Positions 6,771 through 44,957 of a DNA stretch of 64,000 nt are shown here, piece by piece. Location: the NCBI GenBank assembly GCA_963281255.1, contig OY725503.1, positions 3,162,001-3,226,000 on the forward strand. Direction: 5' to 3'. The notes under the pieces are model-generated. The model had not been told where the DNA came from and ran no database searches. It saw only the letters and a program-made list of their open reading frames with translations. A program made the position numbers and the translations under genes. The stretch's first letter is position 1, and each line of letters starts with the position of its first letter. This stretch comes from Aphrocallistes beatrix (Eukaryota > Porifera > Hexactinellida > Sceptrulophora > Aphrocallistidae).

Positions 6771-8720
6771 TTAATCAAGTTCGGAGAAGAGGTGCCTCGA
6801 AAGGTTGCGAGTAAGCGACATACGCAGAACATTAAATTTGGTGTCTAGAGATTCGGAATAAAGATCGCTAGAAAAGGTATCATAGAGAAGGTTTCTAGGA
6901 TTTACATAGGACGAAGTAATATCCTGCAGGTACCTCATCAGATCGTACGTGTCTTCTTCTGTAAATAAATATTCATCTAATTCGAGTAGCGGTAATGCAT
7001 CGAATAATAAAGTAATGTAGAATGCTTTCGGTGCGAGTCCGGAGCGTAAAATATTCATCAAAAGTTTAGCAGAACTCCAAACATCTCCAGAAGCATAGAG
7101 AGAATGAAAATCTGAATATTTCCCGATAAAAGTAATCTCTTCACTCTGGAATATGTCTGCCCCGATCTTATCCAAATTACAGAGATCTTCAATAGACCCG
7201 TTTTGCATATACTCCCATATGTACTTCTGTACGACATACCGACTGAATATGTTGTCTCCGGAGAGTAAACACCAGTTGAACGCTTTAGGCAGTTTTCTCT
7301 CTCTCAAGCATAGTCGGGCCTGAACCTTACAGATAGTGGAGAGGGTAGATCTCTGATTGTAGCGTTCACAGATCTCAACCACTGAAGTTATCTTATCTTC
7401 ATCAAAGCTAGCCCCAATTCTCTCCAGGAAAGTGGCCAAAGTCCTTTCTCCCAATTGCGGACAAGCGAGCATGAGATAGTCAGCTCCGTAGACCCAGAAT
7501 TCAGGATGCGACATGAGAGAATTTGCGTACCCTAGCACCAGGAACTCATTTAAATTGATGTTTTCATCCCTGCTGGAGGGGTAGACTGGATGTGCTAGAT
7601 CCTGGTACCCTGCCATGGTCAAAAGGTCGGAAAGATGTGCAACTATGCACCAGTTAGGCTCCAAATCACAGAGTTGTTGGAAGAAATCAAGCAGAGAGCT
7701 GGTGAAGAGATTGAGTATAATTTTATCTATGATATTGGAGGCATTGAAGAATACGTAGGCATGACGTACTCGCTCCATTAGCTCCGTTGAAAACGCTTCT
7801 GCAAAAGGATTACAGTACAAGAGCAATCCAACCAACATGTCTATCCATCGAGGACAAGCAATCAGAGGAATGGAATCGAATGCGTCTCTATCTCCGTTTA
7901 GTAATTTCCCTATTTCTTCTATTTCCCTTAGAGATTGCAATTCCCCGCAATTAACCGACTCACTGATCAGCTGCTTCCAAGAAACCCATTTCATATACAT
8001 TTCATTGAGAGAGACATTCTCCGCATACAACGGGAATGACTTAAGGAGTTCGGATAGAGTCTTGATGCAGAGTATATCCTGTTTTCCGTACATGCCCTTA
8101 CCATCTTGTTCTAGCAACGGAGCAAGTAGATTCACACAGTCGTATATCCGACCTTGAAGGATTAGAGCGTAAACTGCATTCCAGAATTCATCACGTTGTT
8201 CAGTTCTTGCAGCAGTTTCCAACAATCTGTTAGCATGATCGCCATGAGATTGAATCCAATGAGCTAATTGGAGAGATATCATTTGATGCTTGATTGGAGT
8301 GTCTGATCTCTTACTGGGGGGAGTGAGGTAGAGGATTTCTGACAGGTGCCAGATCAACTCTTGCATCGCAAATGCATCACTTGAATATTCTTGACATGTC
8401 TTCTCAATCGCAGCTCGATACTTGAGGCTGTACTCTATGAGAATATTGTGTTTTGTAACTGTAGCCTTCTTATCCGCTGATTCCAGTAATGAATTCAATT
8501 CGCAGTGCATCTCATTAAATATAACGTGAAACAACTTATACCTATAGCCATCAGGTCCTGTTGGCTGTAAATCTGGAGGAGAGAGATAGGTTATCTGAGA
8601 CCTGTCAGATCCTTGGTGAGTATAGAGAAGAAAGGTGTCAAACGGTCCAGGAGTGCATCTAATAACGTTGTGTTGCTTCACACTTCTCAGAGGGATGATT
8701 GGATGAGAAAGGTGACTCAT
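6771..8720 (-). CDS. NUP85: Nucleoporin Nup85 (NPC Y-complex scaffold subunit)
   Basis: Encodes 649 residues from the ATG at 8718-8720; the frame is open three codons further to a TTG. Human Nup85 is about 656 residues, so this is full length in a single exon. I recognise the family by the C-terminal half: SHPEFWVYGADYL (about residue 403), ICERYNQRSTLSTICKV, FIGKYSDFHSLYASG (about 533), APKAFYITLLFDALPLLE (about 560), a TYDLMRYLQDLTS-like block and the closing LRMSLTRNLSRHLF. The protein is predicted to be an all-helical alpha-solenoid (ancestral coatomer element 1 fold). In the family it binds Seh1 by donating a blade and forms an arm of the Nup107-160 Y complex on both faces of the nuclear pore. 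No lesion is seen. It is the best-supported host gene here and lies outside the duplicated interval. Confidence 0.95.
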   Translation of the reverse strand: MSHLSHPIIPLRSVKQHNVIRCTPGPFDTFLLYTHQGSDRSQITYLSPPDLQPTGPDGYRYKLFHVIFNEMHCELNSLLESADKKATVTKHNILIEYSLKYRAAIEKTCQEYSSDAFAMQELIWHLSEILYLTPPSKRSDTPIKHQMISLQLAHWIQSHGDHANRLLETAARTEQRDEFWNAVYALILQGRIYDCVNLLAPLLEQDGKGMYGKQDILCIKTLSELLKSFPLYAENVSLNEMYMKWVSWKQLISESVNCGELQSLREIEEIGKLLNGDRDAFDSIPLIACPRWIDMLVGLLLYCNPFAEAFSTELMERVRHAYVFFNASNIIDKIILNLFTSSLLDFFQQLCDLEPNWCIVAHLSDLLTMAGYQDLAHPVYPSSRDENINLNEFLVLGYANSLMSHPEFWVYGADYLMLACPQLGERTLATFLERIGASFDEDKITSVVEICERYNQRSTLSTICKVQARLCLRERKLPKAFNWCLLSGDNIFSRYVVQKYIWEYMQNGSIEDLCNLDKIGADIFQSEEITFIGKYSDFHSLYASGDVWSSAKLLMNILRSGLAPKAFYITLLFDALPLLELDEYLFTEEDTYDLMRYLQDITSSYVNPRNLLYDTFSSDLYSESLDTKFNVLRMSLTRNLSRHLFSELD

Positions 8721-8936
8721 CTCAAACAATACTAAATGTAATGGAATAATAACATTTGAGACCTGATTCTAGATAGAAGAATTTTATTCTAAAATAGCTT
8801 TAATAATTAATACAGTCAGAAAGATTCGGTGAGAGAGATAGTATTGAATATTTTCATGAATATCAGAAAGTGAAAAAAATTATAATTTACACACAACGTA
8901 CGTACGTATATTTAGTGGGATATATACACTACCCGC

Positions 8937-12025: not shown

Positions 12026-12482
12026 CAGTACACCCTCGCTAATCCGAACAGCCCTGTACCAAGGAGAGAAAAAATCATTCCGATTACTGAATTTGTTCCG
12101 ATTAGTGAAGAACTTATTTTTATAACCCAGAATATTGAGATATACGGTTATATTGTTTCATACATATTGCTATACATAATGTAATGCGTTAAGACTAGAA
12201 AAAGATATTCAAGTTCATTTGCTTTATATTGCTTATCCTCTTTTTCGCTGCCAGTTCCCTTAGTTCGTGGAGAATAGTTAGGTTAATCGGAACCCTCGCT
12301 ATTCAGAACCTCGCTAATCCGAACCCTTGCTAATCCGAAACCCTCGCTGTTCGGAACCTCGCTAATCGGAACCCTCACTAATCGGAACCCTCACTAATCG
12401 GAACCCTCGCTAATCCGAACCCTCGCTGTTCGGATTAGCGAGGGTACGAACTAGCGAGGTTCCGATTAGCGAGGGTGTACTG
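12026..12482. mobile_element. pogo/Tigger-like MITE with internal tandem repeats
   Basis: The ends CAGTACACCCTCGCTAATCC and GCGAGGGTGTACTG are inverted and flanked by TA. The right third is a tandem run of CCCTCGCTAATCCGAA-like units. Its right part (12413-12482) reappears at 32293-32362, where copy B starts. Confidence 0.85.
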
Positions 12483-12839
12483 TATAAATATGGTGTCAAA
12501 GTACTCATATCCGTTACTAAATTTTGATCAGTAATTATATGATTGCGCAACAGGTTATATTTGTGACGAATTTAGTGATTTTCAGAGCCGGTTTAAGGAA
12601 ATTTCTGAGTGTTTTTAATATAACATTTTTGCATACAACTGAGTTGTGAAAGGGCTGATGCCAGGGATTTCAGAACTGGCAATAAAAAAGTTGTATTCTC
12701 TAACTTTCACTCCAAAAAAGGCAGTATGTAGCGAGTATAAAAAATATTAACAAGTAAATTCCTGGTGATGCGAAAAAGTTGGATTTTTTCCATAGAATGT
12801 TGCAATATTCCAGCGTTGCTATAGAAACAGATTTTGATA

Positions 12840-13290
12840 TATACAAGCGCGCTTCGCTTGCTTGCGCTTCGCGGCTGGCGGACACTTTGTGTCCGTCGGA
12901 AGCGCCCTTTAGGCGCCTGGGGTCACCATTGATTAATTATATGGGAGACAACATCTCTTGTTAAGCAATACAGTTATTCGAGCATAACTCAGCCATTATA
13001 GGAGATAGAAGGCTGAAATTTTAATAGAATATGTATACTGACATGCCTCACATATGATACAACTCTCATCCAAATATAATGACGTCATCATTACGCATCA
13101 AAATTTTAAAAACTGAAAAATTTGGTGATTTTTCGTGCGATATCTATTATAACAGTAAGACAGACGTATTTAAAGATGTTATCTCCGATATAACTAAATA
13201 ATGGTGACCCCATGCGCCCACAGGGCGCCTCCGGCAGACACAAGGTGTCCGCCAGCCGCGCAGCACAAGCAAGCGAAGCGCGCTTGTATT
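12840..13290. repeat. bZIP-motif repeat family copy
   Basis: Runs from the GC-rich tract CAAGCGCGCTTCGCTTGC to GCAAGCAAGCGAAGCGCGC. It contains hairpins such as GGACACTTTGTGTCC and GCGCCCTTTAGGCGC, and one TGACGTCA. The copy B equivalent is at 32720-33170. Confidence 0.8.
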
Positions 13291-13299
13291 ACATAATCC

Positions 13300-13842
13300 T
13301 TACTATTAAAACTCGATTAATATTTATTTGTATATATATATATATCTCTGTAACGAATTGATTGAAGAAACTGCCGGTCATAGAAAGCTAATTTTTGGCA
13401 TGTGGGAGTATTTTGGCTATGGCTCCAGTAAGTTCTGAGCTCAGAGCAAAATGTCGAATCATCATGGAATTATGACGTCATTGTCACATTTTTAAAAGTT
13501 AAGTAATAGAGTTATTCGAGCATAACTCAGCCATTATAGGAGATAGAAGGCTGAAATTTTAATAGAATATGTATACTAACATACCTCACATATGATGCAA
13601 CTATCATCAAAAAATGATGACTCATCACTTTGCTATGACGTCATCATTACGCATCAAAAATTTTAAAATTGACAAATTTGGTGATTTTTCGAGTAATATC
13701 GATTATCACAGTAGGACAGACATATTTAGAGATGCTATTTCCCTTATAATTAACCAATGTGACCCCAGGCGACCGAAGGGAGCCTCCGGTGGACACAAAG
13801 TGTCAGCCAGCCGCGCAGCCCAAGCAAGCGAAGCGCGCTTGT
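13300..13842. repeat. bZIP-motif repeat family, full-length copy
   Basis: A representative copy. It starts CCTTACTATTAAAACTCGAT, followed by a TA microsatellite, CTGTAACGAATTGATTGAAG, CATAACTCAGCCATTATAGG and the GC-rich end. It holds TGACGTCA at 13473-13480 and 13636-13643 and TGACTCA at 13618-13624, which are CRE and AP-1 consensus sequences. No ORF. The copy B equivalent is 33180-33722. Confidence 0.8.
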
Positions 13843-14121
13843 AGAAAGGTTAAAATGGCAATATAAAAGATCTTCACAATACTTTTCTGCTTTCTTTCTT
13901 TCTCCTACTCGCTCCCTCTGTACACACATGGTGTGAATAGTAAAATATGAATACGTCCGTTTCAATATTTCAAAATATGAGATTTGATAGCTCGAAACAG
14001 ACATCACACGAAAAGTCCAAAATGATGTTCCAAGGGTCTGTTTCTAGAAAAGAAGTCAACAAGTAATAATATCTACAAAATTGAATTAAATGGTTAATAA
14101 TTTCAAACGTCAGATAACAAT

Positions 14122-14814
14122 AGGGTGCGTCAATTGGGGTCAATTACATTTGTTCAATTACAATTACGAATCAATTTTAAGGCAAGTAAAATTTTCAATT
14201 ACAATTACACTTCAACTACAGTGTAATTGTAATTAATTACCAATAACACAATTATAATTGTAATTGACCCCAACCCTGAGTGATGCAACTATTTTTGCGC
14301 CAGGGTCTTTGTTGTATTGATACAAATGCATTTATACCGAAGAAATTCCTTAGATATAATTTTCATGACTCATGAATAATATTGGATATTTTATATTCCA
14401 TTAGGTTACAAAAAATAGCAGGGCCGGCGCCATTGAGGTGTTCTGGGTGTCTGGACACCCACTGCCTTTCCATTTATCTAAATTGTACTGTATACAGTCG
14501 ACTCCGCCTAATTGGGACACATCGGACCCCGAATTTTGTCGCGATTAATCGGAGTTAACTGTATATCCATTCCTACATGGACACTCACTTTCAGACAAAT
14601 CACTCTTAGGACACCCACTGTCCATACAACTTAGCGCCGGCCATGATCATAGTAAACTATTACTCGATAATCTTCTGAATTTAAACTGAATTAAAATGTT
14701 TTGCTTATTTATTGAAAGCTGTGAGATACAATTAACTTTTACTTTGCAGATTAGATCTCTCGTAGAACAATTTTCAATAATAAAAATTATTCCTTGTTGC
14801 TTTTGACGCACCCT
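14122..14814. mobile_element. MITE with TIR AGGGTGCGTCAA, carrying nested pieces
   Basis: AGGGTGCGTCAA at the left and TTGACGCACCCT at the right are perfect inverted ends. Inside is a palindromic CAATTACAATTAC region (14140-14275) and a small pogo-like MITE (14495-14561, CAGTCGACTCCG...CGGAGTTAACTG, TA-flanked). In copy B only the left part remains, because the 2.2-kb deletion starts inside it. Confidence 0.7.
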
Positions 14815-15172
14815 CTACATATGCAGATAAAATGACTATTTCAGGATAAACGAGAAAACATCATAGACGCCGAAGGTCGGGGCGCTCTCCCACTGTGTTT
14901 ACTGAAATAAATGCTTCATTGAAATTCATATATAATTATCAGTATTGATATTGCTATGGCCAAGCGACCAACATGTGAAAATATAACCCAGAATTTTTCC
15001 CACAAATTTTAAACAATTATTAAGTATCAGCCCCTTGGGGATAGGACCCGTTTGCTGTCTATGACATCCTCCGAGATGTTTTTAAGATTTGCCAGAATAT
15101 AATAATTCGGATACAATTGTTAGATGGAACAAATACAATTTGCTAGTATTAATTGAAAGCAAATATACTTAC

Positions 15173-15266
15173 CTTTTAGATCTTGCAAATTCTTGACAAG
15201 GTACTTCTCTTTCTCCTCAATCTCATATTTCAAGCTAGGAGTCTCCTTTGTTAAGCAATATTCTTC
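15173..15266 (-). other. Possible exon of an unknown gene
   Basis: On the minus strand this 94-base stretch is open and reads EEYCLTKETPSLKYE, then IEEKEKYLVKNLQDLK, a charged heptad-like segment. It is followed by a strong donor, G|GTAAGTATA. The acceptor choice (AG at 15267-15268) is uncertain because an in-frame TAA lies just upstream. I do not recognise the protein. It lies wholly in the A-only segment, so if real it is lost from copy B. Confidence 0.25.
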
Positions 15267-15689
15267 CTTTTACTCTAGAGAACAGAGTCTGTTTATTTTA
15301 GATAATTAAGAGAACACCATTAAAGGCAATATGGTTTAGCGCCAGTCCCCACTATTGGTTTTATATGTATCCCCTTCAACAGGATCCTTTGGATGGAGAA
15401 CGGGAATAGAAACGTCGGTCAAATGTCTCTTCTGAGTTCTTGCATCTTAAAATGGTAAGTGATCTGCTGCAAAGAAGGATTATGGAGGCTAGGTTAAATA
15501 TTTGTGATGGAGAATATGGGGAAACAACTTCACATAATGTATTCCCATTGATTAAAATAGCGATAAAATCATAATTAAAAGTTGTGGTTAATTATAATAA
15601 TCGTCCTCTAGTGCATCCCTAGTCCAGATTGTTCAAGTAGATGGCAGGCCTTATATACAGTAGGCTATGGTCTAGGCTATGGTCTGACT

Positions 15690-16080
15690 GTTATAATCGA
15701 AATCGCACGAAAAATCACCAAATTTGTCAATGTTTTAAATTTTTAATGCGTAATGATAACGTCATAACAGAGTGATGGGTCATCATTTTTTCATGAAAGT
15801 TGCATCATATGTGAGATATAATAATATACATATTCTATTAAAATTTCAGCCTTCTATCACTTAAAACGGCTGAGTTATGGTCGAAAAACTGAAATTTCTA
15901 ATTATTAAAAAAAAGGTGACAATGACGTCATAATTCCATGATAAGTCGACATTTTCGTCTGAGCTCAGAACTAAGTGGAGCCATAGCTAAAAGACTCCCA
16001 CATGCCAAAAATCAGCTTTCTACGCCTGGCAGTTTCTTCAATCAATTCGTTAAAGATATATATATATATATTAATCGAGT
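15690..16080. repeat. bZIP-motif repeat family, reversed copy
   Basis: Reverse orientation relative to 13300-13842: AAATCACCAAATTTGTCAAT, CATCATTTTTTCATGA, TTAAAACGGCTGAGTTATGG, TGACGTCATAATTCCATGAT, CAATTCGTTAAAGATATATA. It lacks the GC-rich end. Present in copy A only. Confidence 0.75.
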
Positions 16081-16135
16081 TCTAATAGTAAGGATATATA
16101 CACATATATATTAATTGAGTTTTAATAGTAAGGGT

Positions 16136-16510
16136 ATCTTATATATTAAAACGCTTGGATTTTTTTGTTTGTTTGTTTGTCCGAATTGATTGAAGAATTG
16201 GAAGTCATGGAGATATGAAAATTGGCATGTAGGATTCAAATGATGAATATACGATTAAGTCCGAAGATCTAAGCGAAATTTTCACACCTCTGCAAAAAAA
16301 TGGGGAAACAAATTTCCACATTTTCTATACATTACTATGTATGGCTTCACTCTCACAATAGAAATCATTGTACGACACTACGTATATTGTTAGCTGTCTT
16401 TGTTATTAATACTTCAGTTAAAAGCAATAACTTATAAAGATGTCTCAACTATATTATAGTGTATAGCAATAAAAGAGGCCTTGTGTATATTTTCACACCT
16501 TTATATACGG
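16136..16510. repeat. Dispersed repeat starting TATATTAAAACGCTTGGATT
   Basis: Includes (TTTG)n, GTCCGAATTGATTGAAGAAT, GGCATGTAGGATTCAAATGATG and AGATCTAAGCGAAATTTTCAC. The reverse-complement family is found at 24170-24590, 41850-42249, 63390-63570 and partly at 3260-3430. The TTTGTTTGTTTG tract of the copy B member is the target of the 6.8-kb transposon. Confidence 0.7.
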
Positions 16511-17054
16511 TACATATTTTCCCGGATTAAGTAAAATAAAATTCCCACAATAGCAGTGGTTTAAAAACACAGTTAGTAAAAAATCGGTATATAGATGCAC
16601 GTTAGCCCTATCAAATGTATTATATGCATATAGGTTATCAACCCTTGGGAAACGATTGGCATAATAAAAAATTTTATATGGCTTCAGCTGTGCAAGATAT
16701 GGCTTCCCAGCATTTTGACGAATTTTGTTCTTTTGCTCATATTTCTTTCAGATTTGCTATTAGCTCCATGAAATGTATTAGATTCATATAGGTTATCAAC
16801 CCCTAGAAAGCCATAGGTGCACTCAGAATTGTTATATGTCTTCGCTTTTTCGAGATATGGTTTACCTAGAATTTGGTTGCATTTTTAAAAAAGTTTTCCA
16901 TATCTCAGAAAATCGTGGAAATATTATGATAAACTGTACATCAAGAGTGAGAAAACCTGCAAGTACACGATAAAAAGATTGTCAAATGAAGGCACAATGG
17001 TTCTTAATGATGATGACAACACACACATACAAATATTGTACTAATCCTATAAAT

Positions 17055-18642
17055 CTAAGTGTTAATTATGAGTGTATCGACAATTGTATCTATTGATGAA
17101 AGTAATGAACTATTTCTGCAGCACTTACCTCTTTTTGTGTGGCCGTGTTCTCCACATCTTTCGCAAACTAACTTTGATCGGAATAGATTTAGCATGGAGT
17201 CACTGTCAGAAGCCAATCTCACAAAAATGTCGACCACATTGTCTTCAAATGACACTTCCTAGCGAGATTATCCCTGTACTTTATTATTAGCTTGTTACAA
17301 GCCTCGGAACCTTCCTCAGAGAAACATTTCAAGGCGTGTCCGAAATGCAAGTCTTTCAAAATTTCTTTTGAGTGAGCTAATACCCAATGCAATGTCGGTG
17401 CAATGCCTGTCTAAGGAAACGAGTCCTGCAGAATTAAGAGATAGGTGTTTGTGCATTACTGCATAGATCGCCAAATTATTCGGTATGTATCTGAATTTAT
17501 TATTCTAAGAATAGCTGACAATCGTGTATGTAGTAATTGTGAAAGTGTCTCCTTGTACTCAATCGCAACAGATGACGAAACGCAATCAATAAATTTTGAC
17601 TCGGAGGAAAAAGCTCGACGCGCAACACCACCAGTAGAGGTAGTACCCCCCTTAGGATCAGGCTGGTCTATCTTCAAACCAGTCTTCTCTTGTTTGAGAG
17701 TTCTGACAAAGAACATCGAATTTTTGACTGCAGTTGATGTTGGTGATCATGTAAGTTCACCGCAGCTCAAATGATAAACTAGCAGAGTAAACCACTTGAA
17801 TATACAAGTGTATGAGTGTAGAGGAGATGCTGGAAGGATATTTATAGTGGAAGTTGGTTCGTGGGTGAGGTTATAACGTTCGTTTGAGGGTAGAGAAAAG
17901 AAAGAATCGTTATCTTCGATTTCTCCAAATAGTAGAATGACGTCAGTGATGTGTCTATTGATAAGAAATCCCTGTAGTATTATCAATTCACGATCTTTCA
18001 GTTCATCGTGAGTAGCGGTACATAATTGGCAACTTGCCCCACCTGCTCCAGATAGAATTGCTGACATTTTCCCATCAAACATTGACCGAACAATGTCGAT
18101 ATGCGCTTGTTGATTATCCCCAGGAGATAATCCTTCACTCTTCATTAGCTCAGTTTCCGGATTGATTAAATCGGTCATGAACTGCTTGATATTATTTTCA
18201 TTTTCTTTCGCAGCGAGAAGGAAAATGGGTCGCTGGGTGAAGGGAGAGTTCGGACTGGTGTTTTTCCAGAGTTCTCGACCGCTGAAGGTTGTAAAACAGA
18301 ATAGGATGTATGCTTTAGTCTCTGTATTCGTGTGAGACTGGTTGTAAAGTATGTGACTTCCGGATCCATCTAGTCCATCTGCAATCTGAAATCGCAGAGG
18401 AAAGTCTTGAACTGCAGGAGGCGGTATGGTGAACAAGATTCGGTCGAGTGTATGACGGACGTACTGTGCATATGGTACGTGCGCACCAACTGGAATAATT
18501 GAATAATATTTCGTAAAATAATGCTGTTCCTTTGTTCCACAACCTTATGATATGCAGGGAAATAAATATCGCTAGATAGCAAGTGAAGCATCGCCTGACA
18601 TTTAAAAAAATGGTGAAATTTTTTATTGCTAATTCCATCGGA
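17055..18642 (-). pseudogene. RAG1-like (RAG1L/ProtoRAG) transposase pseudogene, copy A
   Basis: Read on the minus strand, the pieces follow the RAG1 core in order. (1) 18642-18489: MLHLLSSDIYFPAYHKVVEQ, the pre-RNase-H region. (2) After a frameshift near 18488: YVRHTLDRILFTIPPPAVQD, then ADGLDGSGSHILYNQ around the first catalytic Asp, then LLAAKENENNIKQFMTDLI and SCQLCTATHDE (CxxC zinc ligands), ending PLHSYTCIFKWF. (3) TGA at 17747, same frame: LKIDQPDPKGGTTSTG and RLSAILRIINSD. (4) TAA at 17456, then TAG at 17411, same frame: APTLHWVLAHSKEIL (HxxxxH zinc ligands) and CFSEEGSEACNKLI...DNLARK, matching the catalytic-Glu block. (5) After a frameshift near 17258: a tail with CERCGEHGHTKRGKC. 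About 520 residues remain of a usual 900 or more. The N-terminal DNA-binding region is not found. Family assignment is from memory of RAG1 and is strong across five blocks. It is inactive. Confidence 0.85.
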
Positions 18643-19119
18643 TTATTGAGTAGTCTACCATCTAATCGTACTTGTTGGACGGTATTTATTTTGATATTCT
18701 AGAACTGAGCACCTAAAGCTCAGTTGTACTAAAAATCGGAAAGTTATTCGTGGTTTTGCGGTGCATTCATCAATTATTTTCTAACTTATCTGATATTTTT
18801 TCAATTATATGAACCTCAAAATGGTTTTGGCCCCTTTAAATATTATAAAACAGATGAATTTAGAAAAAGAAGCATTAAATCCAATCAAAAATATCTTTAT
18901 GAGGGACTTCATTTCTAAAATGCTCGGGAAATGGCCGTTGTGATATTAGCTATTGTGTATAGAAAAGAATTCTGAACAGTTAAAAAAAAAATTTGTTCAG
19001 ATCCGACCATTAGTTCGTAAGTTATAGTATATTGTAGATAAAGTTCGGACATCAAACCTCTCTATGGCCCCGGAAGTGCTCGATGTCAATGCTTAAAAAC
19101 TATTGAAGATATATAATCT
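18643..19119. other. Gene-free stretch upstream of the RAG1-like remnant
   Basis: Where the N-terminal half of a RAG1-like protein should continue, the minus strand has stops in all frames. A short hairpin CTGAGCACCTAAAGCTCAG lies at about 18705-18724. No RAG2-like frame and no recognisable CAC-type terminal repeat was seen. Confidence 0.5.
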
Positions 19120-21670
19120 ATTATAATCTTAAATGAAAGGATATATATGATAATATATAGGTTCCTCAAACATCTCTTTGTCAAAAAGTAAATATTTCTT
19201 GACTTATCATCGATTTTATTGTAATACTAATTCTATGGAGAACTTTGAATATATTAGAAAATGGCGAATCTTGTCATGAAATAAGTTGCCAAAAGTAGCT
19301 ATTATACTCAAAAAACAATGCAATAGTCACTAGCAATGTATACAGAAATTTTGAAGCACTCAACATGATTATTTTGGAAGTTCAAAGCATTTATCTCCAA
19401 AATTCGGTCAAAGCCCCTCATTTATGATCCAAAAACAGATTCCTCCATATCTCGGAAATATACACCCAAATTCTTAGCTCTCAATTCCTAATATACTTTT
19501 CAAGACGGTATATATCTGATTCTTAAATAATAAGTGTACTACATAAAATGGAATGCTAAGTTTTTAAATTTTTATCACGTGATGACGTAGCATTTTTCGA
19601 AAATCCTAACTTGAAAACTAAAAGTCGTAGACTCTCGCTCTAACTTCCTAATATACTTTTTAGAAGCTCTTTATTCATTCTAAACCGATGAATTATACTT
19701 TGTAGTGCTAGGAATATGAATTATATTCCCTAATTGGTTCAAAATATTCTGGGTTAGAGGCCTCAAGGTAATTTGTGAATTTTCAGTATAATTTTGCTAT
19801 TTTCACCAAAATCTGTGGAATACATCTAATTCATTAGTATACATGCGATTAAATCCCCATGGATGCTTTTATTTATTGTTAATAGCTCATTTTACATCGT
19901 TCTTAACATCAAAACGTCAAATCCCTATATCTCGGGGCTTTAAAATTCCAAAATTGACCGTCTTTCAAAAATTTTAACTCAAAATTGCTTTGAGATAGAG
20001 GTTTGAAAATTTAAGGAGTTGTTCCATATCATTAGGCGATGAGCGTAGGATCACTCGATTTTCGATATCTTATAAATTTGTGATTTTATTGCTGATTTCC
20101 AAAGAAAATCGGGCATTTATGCGATTACAAATTTTATAGACTATATATGAATACATTTTCGAAGCATTTGATCCAAACATGTGTTTCAAAAAAATCACAG
20201 AGTGGAGGAGGGCTTACCATTAAGATGTGCTAGGAAAAAACGGAAAAAACCGACTTTGAGACGCTGTAACTCAAAAACTAGAAATGCGAACCAAAAACTG
20301 TTTGGCATGTCTCAATATTTTTTAATTGCACTACCTGCCCACGCTTAACATCTTATATATCTCTATTCTTGATATATGCTGTAAGCCAAACCTATGGATT
20401 TTTCACGGGCGGTATCCTTAACTAAAAGGATATATGCGAAAATATATAGGTTCCTCGAACATTCCTTTGTCAAAAAATAAATAATTCTCGACTTATCATT
20501 GATTTAATTGTAATACAAATTCTATGGAGAACTTTGAATATATTAGAAAATGGCGAATCTAATCATTAAATATGTGTCCAAATGTGGCTATTATGCTAAA
20601 TAATGACTACAATTGTCGTTAATAATGTGTATAGAAAAATTGGAGAACTTTGATAATTATTTTGAAAGTACTGGCCTTGGACTTCGCAGATTCGGTCAAA
20701 AACCCCCATTTAGGGTCCAAAAAGAGATATCTCTCTATCTCTGTAAATATAAGTCCAAATTCTTAGTTCTCACTTCCTAATATACTTTTTATGAGTGTAC
20801 ATATATGATTCTTTGATAATAATGGCACTACACCCTATGGAATGATAAGTGTTTGTTGTTTTTTGTTTTTTGTTTTAGATTTTTGTTATATGATGACGTA
20901 GCATTTTTCAAAATCCTAACTTGGAAACTAAAAGTCGTAGACTTTCGTTCTAACTTCCTAATATACTTTTCGGAAGCTCTTTAGCCATTCTAAACTGATA
21001 GATTATATATATTTGGTTCAAATATACCTAAATCAGCAGTATAAATGAGAATAAATTTCTGTGAATGCTTTTGTTCATTATTAATAACTCATTCTACATT
21101 CTTCTTAACATCTAAACTTAAAATCTCTATATCTCGGGACTTTAATATTTCAAAATTGACCGTATTTACAGAATTTTAACAAATTGGTTTGAGATAGAGG
21201 TTTGAAAATTTCAAGAGTTGTTCCATATTATTTGGCGATGAACGTAGGACCACCATTTTTTCGATATCCTCTAACTTGGTGATTTTATTCCTGATTTCCA
21301 AAAAAAAAGACATTTTTCGGACACCGATAAAATTTACAATTTTTGTCATTCTAACTTTCTTTTGGTCCTATGAAGTTGCAAATATGGTAGACTATCTATG
21401 ATTCGATTTTGGAAGCATTTTATTCCTTGGTATGTCCTAAACAATTCCTTGAGTGCCCGAATTTCTACCATTAATATGTGCTAGCGTAAAACGAAAAAAA
21501 CAGACTTTGAGACACTGTATCTCAAAAACTAGAAATGAGAATCAAAAACGGTTTGGAATGTGCCAGTATTTCTTGATGGAGATACCTCCCCACGCTTAAC
21601 ATCTCTTATAGCTCTACTTTCATCGTATGCTATAAGCCAAATCATATGTTTTTTCGAGGGCGGTATCCTT
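19120..21670. repeat. Diverged direct tandem repeat, two units of about 1.3 kb (copy A)
   Basis: Unit 1 (about 19125-20415) and unit 2 (about 20420-21665) share, in order: GGATATATxxGATAATATATAGGTTCCTC (variant bases), GAGAACTTTGAATATATTAG, CACTTCCTAATATACTTTT-type blocks, GATGACGTAGCATTTTTC, CCTAACTTGxAAACTAAAAGTCG, ATCTCGGGxCTTTAAxAT, and the ending CCACGCTTAACATCT...GGGCGGTATCCTTAA. Short frames (such as 72 codons at 21529) run through it without domain signal. It is non-coding, of unknown origin. Confidence 0.8.
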
Positions 21671-22434
21671 AAGATACAATAGTTATTTTCTTTTGAGATT
21701 CTTGCAAATTCAATACGGGACTTTGGGAAAGATAACTTCTCAGCCATGAGGAATGTGTCAATGAATAATTATTAAGAGATTCAAATACTCAAGCTTTTTA
21801 CATCATCAGACATTTATTTATAATATCGGTATAGTGTTTGTACTTTGAGTTGAAATACGATGAGTGTGGTTGTAAGAATAATATCTTATTTTGGACATAG
21901 TTACAATATTTGACTATGGAATTTGCCTAACAACAAAAATATGACAATGGAATTCAATATAAAATCTTAATTTTCGCACTGTTTCGGGGCGCATCCGTTT
22001 AAACTATGAATTTAGATCTAGTTAGGGGTATATTGTATCAATATCTAATTGAAGTTTTGTGAAGTTTACTTTTGCAAGCACTTAAATTTTTATCAAATAA
22101 ATTTTGATGCTAATATAGCAACATGTATAGAATTCAATTTCTCAACTGAAATATTGAAAATATTTGAATGAAAACAGGTTATTCGGTTTCAGCATACTTG
22201 AAATGTATAAACTAAACTGAATGATCTTGCTTATATTTGAATTGAGGTTAATTTTAGAAATCCCCGGAACGACAATTTTAGCTAAAATGAACATGCATAT
22301 TTGTTAGTGTAATTGTACTGCTTCTAGGCACTCAATTGCTTAGAAAAATGAAACAAGTTTTATTCAAACAATAAGTAATCGAATAAAACCATTGGATAGG
22401 AGATCTATTTTTTCCTATTCTTTGGTTCTAAACC
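21671..22434. other. Gene-free AT-rich stretch
   Basis: No ORF of substance, no recognisable repeat boundaries and no RNA gene seen. Copy B carries the same sequence at 39338-40101. Confidence 0.4.
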
Positions 22435-22600
22435 ACTGCGCGCGGACACTTTGTGTCCGCAGAGTCGCCCTGCGGCGCCTGGAGTTACTCAATCTAGCCT
22501 ATTAAGATTGAGTAACTCCAGGCGCGCGCAGGGCGACTCTGCGGACACAGTGTCCGCAAGCCACGCAGCGCAAGCAAACGAAGTGCGCTTGTTTTAATAT
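22435..22600. repeat. GC-rich palindrome related to the bZIP-motif repeat ends
   Basis: GCGGACACTTTGTGTCCGCA through GGAGTTACTCAATCT is mirrored by AGATTGAGTAACTCC through GCGGACACAGTGTCCGC. The arms are about 53 bases with a short AT loop, followed by CGCAGCGCAAGCAAACGAAG. A related fragment lies at 23945-24050. Confidence 0.8.
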
Positions 22601-23128
22601 AACCGGCCAAGACTTTTGTTACATCCTGTACATTCTCCTTTAGTGTCATTTTCTAATTTAAATTTAACCTAATTGAATTTCAGTAGGAAACGTTGAGAAA
22701 ATTGTTAAATATCAGGGGGAATTGTGAAAACAAACTTTATTAAATGAGTGCGATCCTCAAAAACAAAAACGCTGCTCCGGCTTCCGCTCCTGCGTTCCAA
22801 AAGGAGCGCGCTCCAGCTCAGCTCCCTGAATCCTCAGGACATTACATAAAAGATTATTTTTAAGACACAATCGTATCACAGGTCTCTCAACCTGACAGAG
22901 TTCGAAAATCGTGAGATTTGATAGAAGCGTCGTGATATTTTGAGACAAGTCGTGAGATTTGGGGGTCTGTCGTGAGATCGTGACATTTTACCCGAAATCA
23001 AGTGATACACGACAAGAGAATTGAGAGACCTGGAAGAATGATTTGTAAAACTTTACAACAAGGTAGCAAATAAATATACAATTAATGTTGTTTGAATTTG
23101 AAACAATACAAGTAAGTAGTATGTTAAT
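22601..23128. other. Gene-free stretch
   Basis: Contains a short run of TCGTGAGAT repeats (about 22907-22985). A 63-codon minus-strand frame at 22757-22948 has no domain signal. No gene is recognised. Confidence 0.4.
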
Positions 23129-23668
23129 CCTTACTATTAAAACTCGATGATTGTATATATATATATATATCTGTAACGAATTGATTGAAGAAACTGCCGG
23201 GCGCAGAAGGCTGATTTTTGGCATGTGGGAGTCTTTTGGCTATGGCTCCAGTAAGTTCTGAGTTCAGAGCAAAATGTCGACTCATCATGGTATTATGACG
23301 TCATTGTCACATTTTTTAAAAGTTAAGCAACACAGTTATTCGGGCATAACTCAGCCATTATAGGAGATAGAAGGCTGAAATTTTAATAGAATATGTATAC
23401 TAACATGTCTCACATATGATGTAACTATCATCAAAAAATGATGACTCATCACTTTGTTATGACGTCATCATTACGCATCAAAAATTTTTAAACTCACAAA
23501 TTTGGTGATTTTTCGAGTGATATCGATTAGCACAGTAGGACAGACATATTTAGAGATGTTATCTCCCTTATAATTAACCAATGTGACTCCAGGCGACCGA
23601 AGGGAGCCTCCGGCGGACACAAAGTGTCCTCCAGCCGCGCAGCGCAAGCAAGCGCGAAGCGCGCTTGT
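23129..23668. repeat. bZIP-motif repeat family, full-length copy
   Basis: Same architecture as 13300-13842, with a (TA)n after CTCGATGATTG, TGACGTCA twice and TGACTCA once. The copy B equivalent (40796-41362) has a longer TA run and an extra AAAAAATGATGACTCATC unit, giving it a second TGACTCA. Confidence 0.8.
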
Positions 23669-24706
23669 ATATTAGTAATATGGTTGGTTAAAATTAATTT
23701 AACCACAAATTCTATACAGTGCGATCCTCAAACCGTTTTGATGAAAATCGATGTAGAATTAATGAAAACGATCATTATATAGAATGTGCGATGCTATACA
23801 GCATAATCTAACCATTTTCAGAAAATCAATTTTACTGGTTTAACCAATCTCTAGTCCAAGTCCACTCATCAGCACAATTGGCTTCGTGTGCTAGAATGCT
23901 ATGGGGAGACCTTTAAAAGTTATAATGTTACTATTTTATTAATTACAAGAGCGCTTCGCTTATTTGCACTGCGAGGCTTGTGGACACGTGTCCGCGTTCG
24001 CATTGAGTAACTCCAGTCGCCCTGCGGGTGCCTGGAGTTACTCAATCTAGCCTATTGTGGGAATTTGTTTACTTTATATAAATATTGTAAACAAAAGTTA
24101 ACAAATAATTTCTCATATAGATCTGGAAATATAATATTCTAACTCTACACCTCTGAAAACCCCAGATCAACCGTTGGAAGCTAGTCTCTAGCGGGTTTTT
24201 AAAAATTCATCAAATGGTGTTAAAATATGTATATAAAGGTGTTAAAATATACACAAAACCTTTTTTATTGCAATATACAATAATATAATTGAGACATCTA
24301 TATAATTTATTGCTTTGAAGTATTAATAACAATGACAGCCTACAATAGTGTCGTACAATGATTTCTATTGTGAGAGTGAAGCCGTACATAGTATTGTATA
24401 GAAAAGGAGTGAAAATTTGTTTTCCATTTTTTTTGCAGAGGTGTGAAAATTTCGCTTAGATCTTCGAAGTTAATCGTAGATTCATCATTTGACACCTACA
24501 TGCCAATTTTTGAATATCTATAACTTGCCAATTCAATCAATACGGACAAACAAACAAACAAATCCTAGCGTTTTAATATACAAGATTAATATGATATTGC
24601 ATGCATACAAAACATATCTATTTTCACATCTCTTATATCTGGATTCTTTGCATGCTATGGAAATAACTTGATTGCAGTACGATATGAATCAATATGATCG
24701 TCGATA
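23669..24706. other. Gene-free stretch with dispersed-repeat pieces
   Basis: Includes a GC-rich inverted fragment (23945-24050) and the reverse-orientation dispersed repeat at 24170-24590, ending in ACAAACAAACAAACAAATCC. This CAAA tract is the empty site of the copy B transposon. No gene is recognised. Confidence 0.5.
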
Positions 24707-25588
24707 CTAATCAGAAAATAATTGTAAACTGTTACTACTCAGAGAGACTACACCTAATTTGAATGTATTCGTAAGGGCCAATCCTTGTGGAAATTGAAAC
24801 ATTCCTGCTTTAATTCCTTGTCCTCCCAGTACGTGTAGGAGTCTACCATCTTTAGAGAAAAATTTAATTTGGTGTGCTCTCCAATCACTAATGATTAAAT
24901 TCGAATGAGCATCTAGACAAAAGAAAAGAGCGTAACCAATCTGCATTCCATCACCACTTGTGATCAGCGAGCGTATTTTCTCCCCAGAATGATAAAACAC
25001 ATGTATACATGGAGAGTCAGTCTTGCTGAGTATGTACACTTCAACTTGCGTCAGTTTAACGTCACAAGGGAGCTTCATGGAGTGGTGTGCGATGTGTCTT
25101 TGATAATTTAAGTCTCTATCCAGGATTTGAAGACGGTGGTTACTGCAGTCAGTGATGAAGATATCTCCATCTGCAGAGACGGTGAGTTGGTGAGGTTCAA
25201 TGAACCTTCCGATGCCAGATCCTCTACTACCGAGCCTATTGACGAGAGGGATATCTGCTTCCAATTTAAAATGGAATATGCAATGCTCTTCAATGTCAGT
25301 GATGTAGATGTTGGATTTATGAATTGCAATACCCCATGGATGCTTCATGTGTCGATCTGTGAAAGAGCTGACGTATATTCCAGACTCTAAAAATATTGAC
25401 ACACGTGGAAAGCGGGGTAAACTGTACGTTCCTTCTGTAACATAGATGTTGTTAGTATCTAAATCTATGGCGACGCCCTTGGGGCAATTAAGCCTTCCGA
25501 GTCGTTTTCCATTCTTCGCTATAACTACTAAAGATATGATTGCTTCGCTTTTTATGGATTCTTGATCTTCTAGGATTCGATTTGTCAT
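24707..25588 (-). CDS. NHL-repeat beta-propeller protein, copy A
   Basis: Encodes 293 residues from the ATG at 25586-25588. The frame is open nine more codons to a TTG, and a splice acceptor-like TATTTTTAG sits at about 25626, so an upstream exon is possible. At least five or six NHL repeats are visible: GVAIDLDTNNIYVTE, WGIAIHKSNIYITD, PHQLTVSADGDIFITDCSNH, PCDVKLTQVEVYIL, FFCLDAHSNLIISDW and FPQGLALTNTFKLGVV. Several are followed by the typical R/H-x-x-IxxF/L strand. This predicts a six-bladed propeller of the TRIM/NHL type used for protein or RNA binding. No RING, B-box or coiled coil is found in the exon. It is either an NHL-only protein or the last exon of a longer one. The specific partner is unknown. 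Confidence 0.8.
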   Translation of the reverse strand: MTNRILEDQESIKSEAIISLVVIAKNGKRLGRLNCPKGVAIDLDTNNIYVTEGTYSLPRFPRVSIFLESGIYVSSFTDRHMKHPWGIAIHKSNIYITDIEEHCIFHFKLEADIPLVNRLGSRGSGIGRFIEPHQLTVSADGDIFITDCSNHRLQILDRDLNYQRHIAHHSMKLPCDVKLTQVEVYILSKTDSPCIHVFYHSGEKIRSLITSGDGMQIGYALFFCLDAHSNLIISDWRAHQIKFFSKDGRLLHVLGGQGIKAGMFQFPQGLALTNTFKLGVVSLSSNSLQLFSD

Positions 25589-25704
25589 GTTTAGTAGACA
25601 ATCGTTTATTTTCAAACAAAAGTTTCTAAAAATATATTAAATAATAGAGTATATTATGCCAAACTTTTTTATCGTGTCCCCTATATATATACTATTGTTA
25701 GGTA

Positions 25705-25795
25705 CAGTAGATATTGGATATAGTGATATATTGGATATAATGATATATTGGATATAGGGATATATTGGATATAGGAATATATTGGATATAGCATA
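25705..25795. repeat. Minisatellite upstream of the NHL gene
   Basis: Five tandem units of about 17-18 bases, consensus ATATTGGATATAGxGAT, 120-210 bases upstream of the NHL start codon. The copy B equivalent is at about 50240-50330. Confidence 0.85.
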
Positions 25796-26342
25796 GCCTA
25801 CCTAATATAAGGAAGGCATGGTATATCAACCTCAAAATTTTGGACTAGGGATAAAGTACTGGATTGGAATTATTAGTAAACCACAACTATTTAGTATGAA
25901 ATTTTGCACGGTAAGTCTAAGCTCCACCAACTTTCAATCAACCTTTTGCTTAATATTTGGTTATTTCTTTCATAAATATAATAATAATGATAATAATAAT
26001 GATGATAATAATAATAATAATCTATTTTCACGACATCAACCATTCTGTGTTCCGGATGTAGTGGAACTATTCCCCAGATCGTGTAAATTGTAAAACTATT
26101 CCAGTGATGATTTGGCGAAAGGAATACCGACATTTCACTACTAATTTGAGTGGCTAATAACTTTATTATTAATTTACGTGTGTCATATTACATTTAATTA
26201 ACCTGATAACATATTCAACTTATCAAATTTTACTTCTGATTCGAAAAAGCTTTCTATCCACACATTGAATTGGAAAGATTTTCCGATTTGGCTTGTACTT
26301 ATTGGAATTAGAATTTTCATTACTTCTCAGTAACGTGGCTGA
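25796..26342. other. Gene-free stretch with an AAT/GAT microsatellite
   Basis: The trinucleotide run at 25976-26022 is longer than in copy B (50515-50548). Positions 26025-26110 match part of 3430-3500, a dispersed repeat. No gene is recognised. Confidence 0.5.
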
Positions 26343-27702
26343 TAGCCTACTCTAATAATGCCTCACAGTAGATTGAAAATTATGGACTAGGGATGAAGTA
26401 GTAGCCGAATGGCTTAATACACGATTAGCGGGGCGCCTGCATTAGTTCGAATTTGGACAGTTGGCATTAGTTCGACAATAATTTCAGACAGTTGGCATTA
26501 GTTCGACAGTAATTTCAGACAGTTTACATTAGTTCGACAGTAATTTCAGACAGTTGGCATTAGTTCGACAGTAATTTCAGACAGTTGGCATTAGTTCGAA
26601 TTCTGTATGTAGTCGTTAGTTCTATATGATCAATTCTTGATTTTTTGTTCATTGTTATGCTTCCAAACCTCACAAAATTAAAATGCCACTTTCACGGTCA
26701 ATTTGACATTGTTTCAAACTTAAAATGCCTACTTTCACTTTCTGCGATTATTTTCTCCACAACCATATTTCTGTTAACGAATGTCTACTCTCTATAAAAT
26801 AGAGTAGAACTAATGACAGGTCTCCTAATTATGAGTAGAACTAATGCCAACTGTCTGAAATTATTGTCGAACTAATGCCAACTGTCCAAATTCGAACTAA
26901 TGCAGCGGCCACTTCTAAATGGTATTAAGGTGTGATTTTTGTGTAGAACCAATATTAGTACGAGTTGATTTGAAAAATTTAGAATTTTTCAATGGAATCT
27001 TGTTACATTCTTGTGTTGCTATGGGAAAGCATTTTGGTCAGTTTGGGCCATTTCGTGCAAACTGTAGTAACTAGATCTTCAAATTTGATCGTGTTTGATA
27101 GGCAATGGACAACTTCCTATTAGGTGATAATACAACTTGAACTTCTAAATTCAACGAGTTTTGAGTTATGGGTTGATTTTAAGAATGTGACCAAAACACT
27201 AAATTGTCGCATAACTCTATAGTCTGTGAATTTAGAAGTTTAAATTGTATTATTACCTAATAGGAAGTAGCCAATTGCCTATCAAATGCGACCAAATTTG
27301 AAGACCTAGTTCTTACAGTTTGCAGGATATGGCTCAAACTGATCTAAATGCTCTACCATAGCAACGTAGGAATGCAACAACATTCCATTGAAAAATTATA
27401 AATGTTTCAAATCAACTCGTTCGACACAAAAATTCTACCTTAATAACATTTAGAAGTAGGCTTAAAACAGCTTAGAAAATTGCCAAAATCGTGCTTAAAA
27501 TGACCTGTTGCAATGATATGATGAATAATCGAAATTTTGACAACGGATATATGTACTTTGATGCCATGTTTATATATGCTGGTAATACATTTGTAATGCC
27601 TATCCTACATGGTTAACGATTTTAGGCTAATCGTGTATTAATTCATTCGGTTATTACCGCATCCTTGGTTATTTTACTGTGAGGCATTATTAGAGTAGGC
27701 TA
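26343..27702. mobile_element. Palindromic foldback element with a nested MITE (copy A)
   Basis: The ends TAGCCTACTCTAATAATGCC and GGCATTATTAGAGTAGGCTA are inverted and close with CTCACAGTA. The inner part 26930-27440 is one large palindrome around about 27185. A second element is inserted at 26437-26912. No ORF. The arms carry GTTGCTATGGGAAA (27015-27028), an RFX X-box-like motif. Confidence 0.85.
26437..26912. mobile_element. Nested MITE with internal 36-bp tandem repeats (copy A)
   Basis: CTGCATTAGTTCGAATTTGG at the left is inverted at the right (CCAAATTCGAACTAATGCAG). The left arm holds four to five tandem units of about 36 bases built on GGCATTAGTTCGACAGTAAT. The right arm has about two. 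Confidence 0.8.
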
Positions 27703-27883
27703 TGCGTGGCTATATTTGTTACATCAATGACTCTAAAATAAGAATAGCATGATCGAAGTATTACGTGTAATTGAATCAAGTAAGCTGTCCATCTCACACT
27801 GCCTATTGGTATCTAAAGTTTGATAAATAGGACAAAATTAGGAACGTTCCATTTTTTTGCTAAGTAGGTTTAATCAAAACAAT

Positions 27884-28195
27884 CGCACTTCGCTTGCTTG
27901 CGCTGCGCGGCTGGCAGACACAAAGTGTCCGCCAGGGGGGCGTTCTTCGAGCGCCTAAGTTCACATTGATGAATTATAAGGTAATAACATCTCTAAATAC
28001 GTCTGTCTTAACCCTCGCCTGGCTAGGTCTCAAAAGTATAAATAGAGAAAACCCCACTTTCATTTTCACTTTCAACATTCCTAGCCAACCGCGGGTTAAT
28101 AGCTAAAATGGTCAAATTTTACTTTTGATGAGTAATGATGACGTCATAACAATGATGAGTCGACATTTTCGTCTGAGGTCAGAATATAGTGGAGC
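27884..28195. repeat. bZIP-motif repeat family, internally deleted copy
   Basis: Starts in the GC-rich end (CGCACTTCGCTTGCTTGCGC), contains GGGGGGCG and an insertion at about 28012-28095, then resumes at GATGACGTCATAAC and GTCGACATTTTCGTCTGAG. The copy B equivalent is at 52410-52721. Confidence 0.7.
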
Positions 28196-28204
28196 CATAG
28201 CATA

Positions 28205-28688
28205 CCTACCAACCCCTCTCGAAAATTTCCCTGGATTTCAATGGTAATCCCTGGATGTTATCAAATTTTTAATTTTAATGACTAAATTAGCATGAATCAA
28301 TAGACAGGTTAAATTTCGAATTTCGCGAATCCCTGGATATCTAGGGAATTTCCTGGATTTTAAATAAAGGCCGAATATATGTAATTAAAAATTTCGAAAA
28401 GGACAAGACAACTATTAATAGAAAGGTACATTGTATACAATGTTATCTTATGCGTTCGAAATTCGTGATTCCAGGAAATTTTCTAGGATCCCTGAAGACT
28501 TGCTAAACAGTGCGGAACATTAAATTACAATAAATTCCATAAACCTTATTCCATTAATGGAAATTATTATAGGCTAGTTGAAAGCTCAAAATCCCTGGAT
28601 TTTTCATTAAATCCCTGGATCCCTGGATCATAAGTCATTTCCCTGGATAATCCAGGGATCCCTGGAGGGTTGGTAAGTATGCATAGCC
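28205..28688. mobile_element. CCCTGGAT-family MITE (copy A)
   Basis: The ends CATACCTACCAACCC and GGGTTGGTAAGTATG are inverted. The interior repeats TCCCTGGAT. It is an uninterrupted relative of the composite at 4556-5605, used there to define the nested insertions. Confidence 0.75.
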
Positions 28689-28737
28689 AGACTCCCAAAT
28701 TCATAGAAGGAGGAGGATTCATTTACGGGATGTGAGA

Positions 28738-30054: not shown

Positions 30055-30291
30055 GATGTGAGAGGAACATTATATCTACTGTATTATACAAACATTTGAA
30101 AATCATCACTTTTGAAATACCATGGCAAGGGGATAGGAATATGATTTTAGATGGGTGGGCACCATTGGGACTCTTATATAAGTTTATATATATAATTGCG
30201 CCACCCGGGATCTCTGAAAAAAGTGGGGGCGAGCGCCCCCGCTTTCTACCCCCTGCATGGATAATTTCGACTACTACTTGCATCTTGTTAG

Positions 30292-30530
30292 TCCGCTAGT
30301 TGCAAACCTTAATAAAGCCCTTCAGGCTAAGAATCTTGATTTATCTGCTGTTTCATGTCTTGCAAATGCCACGCTATTGACAATTAGCGAATGTGTACAG
30401 CCTTCCAAGTGGCTGTTGAAGGCTGTACACATTCGCTAATTGTCAGAAGTGTGGCATTTACTAGACATGAAATACAGAGAAATCAAGATTCTTAGCCTGA
30501 AGGGCTTTACTAAGGTTTGCAACTGGCGGA
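30292..30530. repeat. Hairpin formed by inverted hAT-coding fragments (copy A)
   Basis: The left arm 30292-30406 and right arm 30419-30530 are inverted copies with scattered mismatches. Both arms, read on opposite strands, encode the same transposase piece (VANLxKALQAKNLD). The plus-strand arm is the less decayed (NATLLTISECVQPSKWLL). Confidence 0.8.
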
Positions 30531-32074: not shown

Positions 32075-32092
32075 CTGTCCCGTTTTTGGCGG

Positions 32093-32292
32093 NNNNNNNN
32101 NNNNNNNNNNNNNNNNNNNNNNNNNNNNNNNNNNNNNNNNNNNNNNNNNNNNNNNNNNNNNNNNNNNNNNNNNNNNNNNNNNNNNNNNNNNNNNNNNNNN
32201 NNNNNNNNNNNNNNNNNNNNNNNNNNNNNNNNNNNNNNNNNNNNNNNNNNNNNNNNNNNNNNNNNNNNNNNNNNNNNNNNNNNNNNNNNNNN
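32093..32292. other. Assembly gap (200 N) between copies A and B
   Basis: 200 Ns lying exactly where copy A ends and copy B begins. Left flank TTTTGGCGG equals 56602-56610; right flank ATCCGAACCC equals 12413 onward. The gap is a scaffold join between overlapping contigs. Confidence 0.97.
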
Positions 32293-44941: not shown

Positions 44942-44957
44942 TCCTTTTATTATACAC

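Follow-up and report, generated by a model that had tools for sequence, protein, structure and literature searches.

The window is a stretch of 64,000 nucleotides from the glass sponge Aphrocallistes beatrix (contig OY725503.1, positions 3,162,001 to 3,226,000). On its minus strand, 17055-18642 is the RNase-H core of a RAG1/Transib-type transposase, as found by translation and protein search. This remnant carries three in-frame stops and at least two frame changes. The features of the locus, counted from the first base of the window, are:

16552-22440, minus strand: decayed Transib-type DNA transposon, full extent including a nested insertion (blastn with the intact sister copy L005; both decayed terminal repeats located)
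22424-22440, minus strand: 5' terminal inverted repeat with decayed heptamer CGCAGTG (CACAGTG in the family), one mismatch to the family pattern
21671-22438, minus strand: 5' part of the element, with terminal repeat, leader and first transposase codons (90.7% identity to L005 60-845)
18587-21670, no strand given: insertion splitting the element, the gap between both L005 matches
17055-18586, minus strand: transposase gene remnant with RNase-H core, ZnC2/ZnH2, catalytic Asp, Asp and Glu, and zinc tail (alignment, translation)
18517-18552, minus strand: YHKVVEQRNSII, portion of the pre-RNase-H stretch (translation)
18353-18382, minus strand: ADGLDGSGSH, where the second D is the first catalytic Asp (alignment)
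within 18200-18256, minus strand: PNSPFTQRP block (translation)
18008-18085, minus strand: SMFDGKM (second catalytic Asp) through SCQLCTATH, in which CQLC holds the ZnC2 ligands (alignment)
17357-17392, minus strand: LHWVLAHSKEIL, HxxxxH block containing LHWVLAHS (alignment)
17285-17326, minus strand: CFSEEGSEACNKLI, catalytic Glu block (alignment; weak Pfam RAG1 match below the cut-off)
17118-17165, minus strand: CERCGEHGHTKRGKCC, CCGHC-type C-terminal zinc motif (translation)
16552-16568, plus strand: 3' terminal inverted repeat with decayed heptamer AGCAGTG, two mismatches to the family pattern
34432-40107, minus strand: second copy of the same fossil, with 5' part 40107-39338 and 3' part 36249-34432, lacking the 3' end

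The initial annotation had described 17055-18642 as a fossil RAG1-like gene with five motif blocks. All five are on the minus strand in the order it gave, from 18552 down to 17285. Three more had been overlooked: the second catalytic Asp in SMFDGKM, PNSPFTQRP and the C-terminal zinc motif. Its extent holds for the 3' part of the element and falls short of the whole, which spans 22440-16552. It was also right that this is a decayed copy with RAG1 kinship in an invertebrate.

From ADGLDGSGSH through CFSEEGSEACNKLI a single frame is used, which contains the three stops. The YHKVVEQ block upstream lies in a second frame, and the C-terminal tail in a third. Introns, suggested by acceptor- and donor-like sites seen by eye, were considered for the window copy and dropped, as the intact sisters have a single uninterrupted frame.

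Among PDB sequences, a 265-residue open piece at 17747-18544 finds HzTransib with E 2.4e-6 and amphioxus RAG1L with E 0.027. Searched against the 100.5-Mb assembly, this piece is found in at least 142 places at E<=0.001 (144 of 159 candidates were scored). Given the HzTransib match and this many relatives in the same genome, the motif similarity is not due to chance.

The two alignments to L005 cover 22438-21671 at 90.7% and 18586-16554 at 92.2%. The insert between them measures 3084 bp (~3.1 kb) and replaces about 549 bp of the element, roughly codons 27-209. The window copy is dead. Inspection by eye revealed no recognisable target duplication around it.

The 701 bp of the insert that were tested are a very abundant, little-diverged repeat. 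This query gave 1366 genome candidates; among 40 scored, 40 rows match at 96-100%, including the two window copies, and one further, shorter row matches at 84%.

The copy at 34432-40107 most likely represents this locus on the other haplotype, placed across an assembly gap. The gap is a run of N's at 32093-32292, and the sequences on its two sides (12413-32092 and 32293-56610) share long stretches that are 99.2-99.9% identical. An independent second insertion was rejected on the same grounds. The assembly around this gap most likely contains uncollapsed haplotypes.

Within the genome, the window copies match the 265-residue piece at 100 and 99%, and seven further copies do so at 93-94% over nearly its full length. 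These seven have open frames of 529-734 residues, one of them with a stop. The closest family, F1, has five full-length elements (L004, L005, L006, L008 and L015) of 3412-3425 bp. A 726-residue frame is uninterrupted in three of the five: L004 (3424 bp), L005 (3412 bp) and L015 (3425 bp). L006 and L008 are also full-length, with frames shortened to 521 and 370 residues. In L004 and L005, the 726-residue frame is the sole ATG ORF of at least 300 residues; no second ORF of that size was found in them.

Over their first 200 bp, L004, L006 and L008 are identical, L015 differs by one base, and L005 is at 94%. Over shared stretches L004 is 99.3-99.8% identical to L003, L005, L006 and L008, and 98.6% to L007. 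This near-identity indicates that the F1 family moved recently, on a relative scale only.

These copies bear on three statements of the initial annotation. Its proposed search for intact copies finds them, in L004, L005 and L015. Its wording that the lineage 'once carried' RAG-type transposons is too weak for a genome with three full 726-residue frames and three copies identical over 200 bp. The RAG2-like kelch partner for which it proposed a search does not appear as a second ORF of at least 300 residues in the intact L004 and L005.

A protein search with an intact sister gave 73 hits. For 13 of these a source is named, and all 13 come from another hexactinellid, Oopsacas minuta, with identities of at most 72%. 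Most database homologues are annotated with Pfam PF26100, which was not returned by the Pfam scans done here. Scans of prokaryote genomes and viral contigs with the profile gave 61 and 73 pattern matches and no confirmed relatives, so there is no bacterial outgroup.

The ends of F1 were placed where identity between copies stops. They read CACAGTGGTTTAGAACC... at one end and CACAGTGGTTTAAAAAC... at the other. The terminal inverted repeats of the intact sisters start with CACAGTG, which is given in PMC8289069 as the consensus RSS heptamer. Four of the five F1 elements are flanked by an exact 5-bp target duplication (L004 CAAAT, L006 TAATT, L008 CCATT, L015 GAAAA), and that of L005 is inexact. 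For L009, L010, L011, L013, L017 and L025, a target duplication was built into the search criterion. For 11 elements, an empty site was searched for among the collected loci and the window, and one of the 11 gave a site. This one is L008, whose flanks, once joined, align with a continuous repeat inside the window (19591-19402, 94.2% over 191 bp), a paralogous empty site.

A domesticated host gene of Transib origin can hardly be what lies here. In favour of one, the catalytic acids are still legible in the decayed copy. The window copy is nevertheless a pseudogene: stops and frame changes break it up, a large insert splits it and its ends have decayed. Its sister copies sit at different sites with target duplications.

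The two ends of an F1 element are not alike. The inner block AAAGAATAGG is present at both, preceded by 17 bp at the 5' end and by 26 bp at the 3' end. The inner block varies among subfamilies, and it agrees between both ends of one element. This pattern argues for recognition rather than for shared descent of the letters alone.

The asymmetry was quantified twice. In six subfamilies, the sum was 44 at an offset of +9 and at most 30 at other offsets (0 of 3000 shuffles). The second test added L014 and L024, for a total of eight subfamilies. Comparing 5' positions 18-27 with 3' positions 27-36, 52 of 80 bases match at +9, and at the 13 other offsets between 0 and 13 the matches number 20-28 of 80. 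The best-window sum of 59 was reached at any offset by 0 of 5000 shuffles, and the next best observed sum was 39. Among permutations of the partners, 37 of 40320 reached 52. The +9 peak is present in six of the eight subfamilies, with L014 tied with -2, and not in L009 and L025.

Left out of the test were L011 (of the same subfamily as L010), L012 and L029 (of that of L024), and loci for which a single end was found. L013, L014 and L017 are related, so not fully independent. L014 has no matching target duplication at its ends; in L024 and L025 the duplications agree at four of five bases.

As a side observation, the zinc-tail subfamilies F1 (L005), L009 and L010 have GTTT after the 5' heptamer, and the tail-less loci with a 5' end (L012, L013, L014, L017, L024 and L025) have other bases there. 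This correlation amounts to two independent contrasts only, both in the same direction (p 0.5).

Sequence scores place the element nearer to HzTransib than to RAG1L. In a single-sequence search of solved structures, HzTransib scores 88.7 bits, BbRAG1L 42.1 and vertebrate RAG1 no more than 22.2. With a profile, HzTransib scores 165.9 bits, BbRAG1L (from amphioxus) 68.6, and vertebrate RAG1 at most 59.9. The profile search named in the initial annotation therefore supports the Transib/RAG1 family, and not RAG1L as nearest. Conversely, BbRAG1L as a query in the PDB finds vertebrate RAG1 at up to 234.1 bits and HzTransib at 20, and its top match in the sponge genome has 38.2 bits, within the element frame of L013. 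HzTransib as a query gives 56 matches in the sponge genome, the best of which (63.8 bits) is L010, an element of the sponge clade.

Pfam, run on the window copy and the intact proteins, gave only sub-threshold RAG1 matches. In the two intact 726-residue proteins it found no domain for a RAG1-type N-terminal zinc/RING region at E<=10. The profile has a weak match (E 0.0077) to the structure of the RAG1 nonamer-binding domain (NBD), 3gna. Genome-wide Pfam searches for RAG2 and RAG2_PHD returned nothing over the cut-off, with uninformative controls.

A tree was made of 27 proteins: 15 sponge rows, nine relatives out of P0119-P0135, HzTransib, BbRAG1L and mouse RAG1. The relatives are unnamed sequences, and named Subgroup I references are absent from this sample. 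A split with 100/100 support divides BbRAG1L and mouse RAG1 from the remaining 25 proteins. The 15 sponge rows form one clade, also at 100/100, with many diverged subfamilies. When the window piece is added, it is the sister of L005 at 100/100. A constraint that unites the sponge rows with BbRAG1L while leaving RAG1 out carries a penalty of 111.7 log units and is rejected (AU p 3.7e-43).

The deep order is less clear. AU tests reject neither sponge plus RAG (p 0.308) nor sponge plus HzTransib/P0135 (p 0.181). The same goes for sponge plus the CCGHC-bearing relatives (p 0.27) and for sponge plus these relatives plus RAG (p 0.325). The statement 'closer to RAG1L than Subgroup II' therefore has alternatives that the AU tests leave unseparated (p 0.181-0.325). 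The program used for the tree flagged long branches that meet (BbRAG1L and a second protein with P0135 and another one), as well as an unusual letter composition in P0131 and BbRAG1L.

These results bear on the idea that the locus preserves, as a fossil, the RAG1-like gene from a ProtoRAG/RAGL transposon that lost its RAG2L partner. The initial annotation had made this identification and had called the motif set specific to RAG1 and RAG1L. The five motif blocks are indeed those of RAG1L, and the same blocks are also carried by HzTransib, so the set is not specific. A length of the RAG2-facing segment as in RAG1, a CCGHC tail like that of RAG1L, and the consensus RSS heptamer of the intact sisters also speak for ProtoRAG. 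So does naming in databases, where several Oopsacas homologues have source names starting with 'V(D)J recombination-activating protei'. Yet BbRAG1L groups with RAG1 at 100/100 and not with the sponge rows, and from this separation and the AU result it follows that the sponge element is not RAG1L. The intact elements have one long gene, RAG1L-like matches in the genome do not exceed 38.2 bits, and the two RAG2 searches, whose controls were uninformative, were empty over the cut-off. The RAG1L/ProtoRAG identity was rejected for the window element, and a partner-less ProtoRAG fossil is accordingly a highly improbable account.

Published descriptions offer two kinds of Transib to compare with. According to Tao 2022 (PMC9435367), the ends of Subgroup I Transibs are asymmetric, their alpha11-alpha12 region is retained and their tail is CTT1. 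For Subgroup II, the same paper reports no alpha11-alpha12 region, a different tail, and ends of both the asymmetric and the symmetric kind.

The RAG2-facing alpha11-alpha12 region is present in the sponge proteins, judged by segment length and alignment. The segment was measured from the ZnC2 cysteines to the conserved His downstream. It has 62-64 residues in all 15 sponge rows, 61 in RAG1 and 57 in BbRAG1L. Seven of the nine other relatives have 66-69. P0135 and HzTransib have 27, which for HzTransib is made up of 14 counted residues plus 13 that had been left out. P0130 reads as 92, because the pattern caught an earlier CxxC.

The zinc-tail count is based on 135 collected proteins, of which 26 have short tails and 65 fall outside the core pattern. 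P0119, P0123 and P0125 are among these 65, yet carry the CCGHC motif. With a loose pattern, the motif is found in 20 of the 44 proteins whose C-terminus is complete. Of the 24 without it, six still have CxxC and H but no G. All five ligands are present in F1 and the window copy, with spacing GHx5C versus the published GHx4C (Cx2Cx3GHx4C). The strict GHx4C spacing occurs in three of the 20 motif bearers, and the sisters P0003 and P0009 have it. The CCGHC motif is described for the RAG1L CTT* in PMC7204232.

The subfamilies L013, L014 and L017 and the proteins P0031, P0035 and P0037 are without a CCGHC tail. The RAG2-facing segment is kept in L013, P0031, P0035 and P0037, the four tail-less cases that were measured. 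A segment kept without zinc tail is a mix outside both published subgroup descriptions.

An ordinary insect-type (Subgroup II) Transib, horizontally transferred into the sponge, is very unlikely. HzTransib is the best match among solved structures, and a clade of sponge rows, HzTransib and P0135 is not rejected (AU p 0.181). The long RAG2-facing segment, absent in HzTransib and P0135, is however kept in the sponge proteins, and the zinc tail is present. The sponge rows are moreover a single 100/100 clade of many diverged subfamilies, and the best of the 56 HzTransib matches in the genome reaches only 63.8 bits, in an element of that very clade.

The window element is very probably a dead and interrupted cut-and-paste DNA transposon with one gene, a glass-sponge member of the Transib superfamily that is of the RAG1L-like 'Subgroup I' sort. 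Its gene content, ends and target duplications, one paralogous empty site and the near-identical copies are all observed in this genome. The placement within Subgroup I is a resemblance in shared features, read from sequence, while the AU tests allow sponge plus RAG, sponge plus HzTransib/P0135 and sponge plus the CCGHC set alike. Asymmetric ends alone are not diagnostic of Subgroup I, given that some Subgroup II and insect Transibs are asymmetric too, by the accounts in PMC9435367 and PMC8355894.

With Subgroup I Transibs as in PMC9435367, the element shares one transposase gene, asymmetric ends, the RAG2-facing segment, a zinc tail like CTT1 but with spacing one residue longer, and an NBD-like region (by a weak match). 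It differs in that some sponge subfamilies keep the segment without the zinc tail, and in its host, as the words 'sponge' and 'porifera' are absent from the main text of that paper. Both words are likewise absent from PMC7204232 and PMC8355894, and 'sponge' from PMC4411706. Neither 'transib' nor 'rag1' occurs in the main text of the Oopsacas genome paper or of its Aphrocallistes counterpart (PMC10280926, PMC10282587). No report of a sponge Transib was found in a literature search that covered mostly titles and the openings of abstracts. The element would be a Subgroup-I-like Transib, a known kind, in a host group without a report in that search. Noteworthy are the presence of intact copies, the measured asymmetry of the ends and the subfamilies that keep the RAG2-facing segment without zinc tail.

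HzTransib (PDB 6pqn and related) has a homologous DDE transposase and is the best solved match by sequence, but is without most of the RAG2-facing segment, and its repeats are reported as symmetric in PMC8289069. Insect Transibs with 12/23-type ends, as described in PMC8355894, also have a single gene and unequal spacers at the two ends. Compared by description, their spacers are near 12 and 23 bp, whereas the sponge inner block comes after 17 and 26 bp. In the alga Aureococcus anophagefferens, AanRAGL (PMC9435367) has a 13-bp outer block, a 10-bp inner block, 4/13-bp spacers and a 5-bp target duplication, all like the sponge element. It differs in having RAG1L and RAG2L where the sponge element has one gene, and in the sequences of its blocks.

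ProtoRAG/BbRAG1L (PDB 6b40) shares the catalytic core, the segment length, the CCGHC tail and the 5-bp target duplication. It has a RAG2L partner, belongs to the RAG1L clade, and its spacers are 27 and 31 bp by the account in PMC8289069. With vertebrate RAG1 and the 12/23 RSS, the intact sponge sisters have in common the CACAGTG heptamer and unequal spacers at the two ends. The spacers differ by 11 bp there versus 9 bp in the sponge, and RAG1 reaches at most 59.9 profile bits.

An intact sister consists of one 726-residue DDE transposase between asymmetric bipartite ends, each a CACAGTG heptamer block followed by an inner block that lies 9 bp deeper at the 3' end. The likely mechanism, by analogy with RAG and HzTransib, is as follows. 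The transposase core would read the heptamer, and the zinc tail and NBD-like region may read the inner bases. The zinc tail of BbRAG1L reads the bases following the heptamer, as reported in PMC7204232 and PMC8289069. Synapsis by a dimer would pair one short-spaced with one long-spaced end. Excision would go via nick-hairpin cleavage, and reinsertion would take place with a 5-bp stagger. Cleavage and strand transfer by the sponge transposase are predictions.

A further-reaching reading is doubtful, and on balance unlikely. It holds that glass sponges contain a large, possibly still mobile clade of transposons without RAG2, which is the sister of the RAG1/RAG1L lineage. RAG2 would then be younger than asymmetric bipartite ends, which combine a heptamer with an inner block shifted by roughly one turn of DNA. 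The zinc tail and the heptamer-adjacent bases would have been lost together within one genome, which would show what the tail targets.

The origin of V(D)J recombination hinges on the Transib-like elements nearest to RAG1L, and on the timing of unequal recombination signals. The glass-sponge set, with its intact single-gene elements, consensus heptamers, asymmetric ends, and zinc tail present or absent, is a natural comparison outside bilaterians. The intact elements are candidates for biochemical tests.

The window also contains other features. A tRNA scan of it came back empty. At 42251-49080 there is a 6.8-kb element with long inverted ends (CGAGCGTTATCTTAGCAGCC...), found in the right-hand haplotype copy only. 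It sits in a CAAA run, with a target duplication of about 9-10 bp, of uncertain length. It has ORFs of 573 and 684 residues, the latter with a sub-threshold OTU match. This is perhaps a heterozygous, Mutator-like insertion.

A piece of the Nup85 nucleoporin gene lies at 6771-8768 on the minus strand (Pfam E 7.8e-91). An NHL-repeat protein is found once per haplotype side, at 24707-25636 and 49242-50171, both on the minus strand (Pfam was run on the first). At 59849-60781 on the plus strand Pfam finds an Exo_endo_phos domain (E 2.2e-11) of the kind seen in non-LTR retrotransposons. Finally, the stretches at 28738-30054 and 53260-54544, of ~1.3 kb each, match their own reverse complement at 95-96%.
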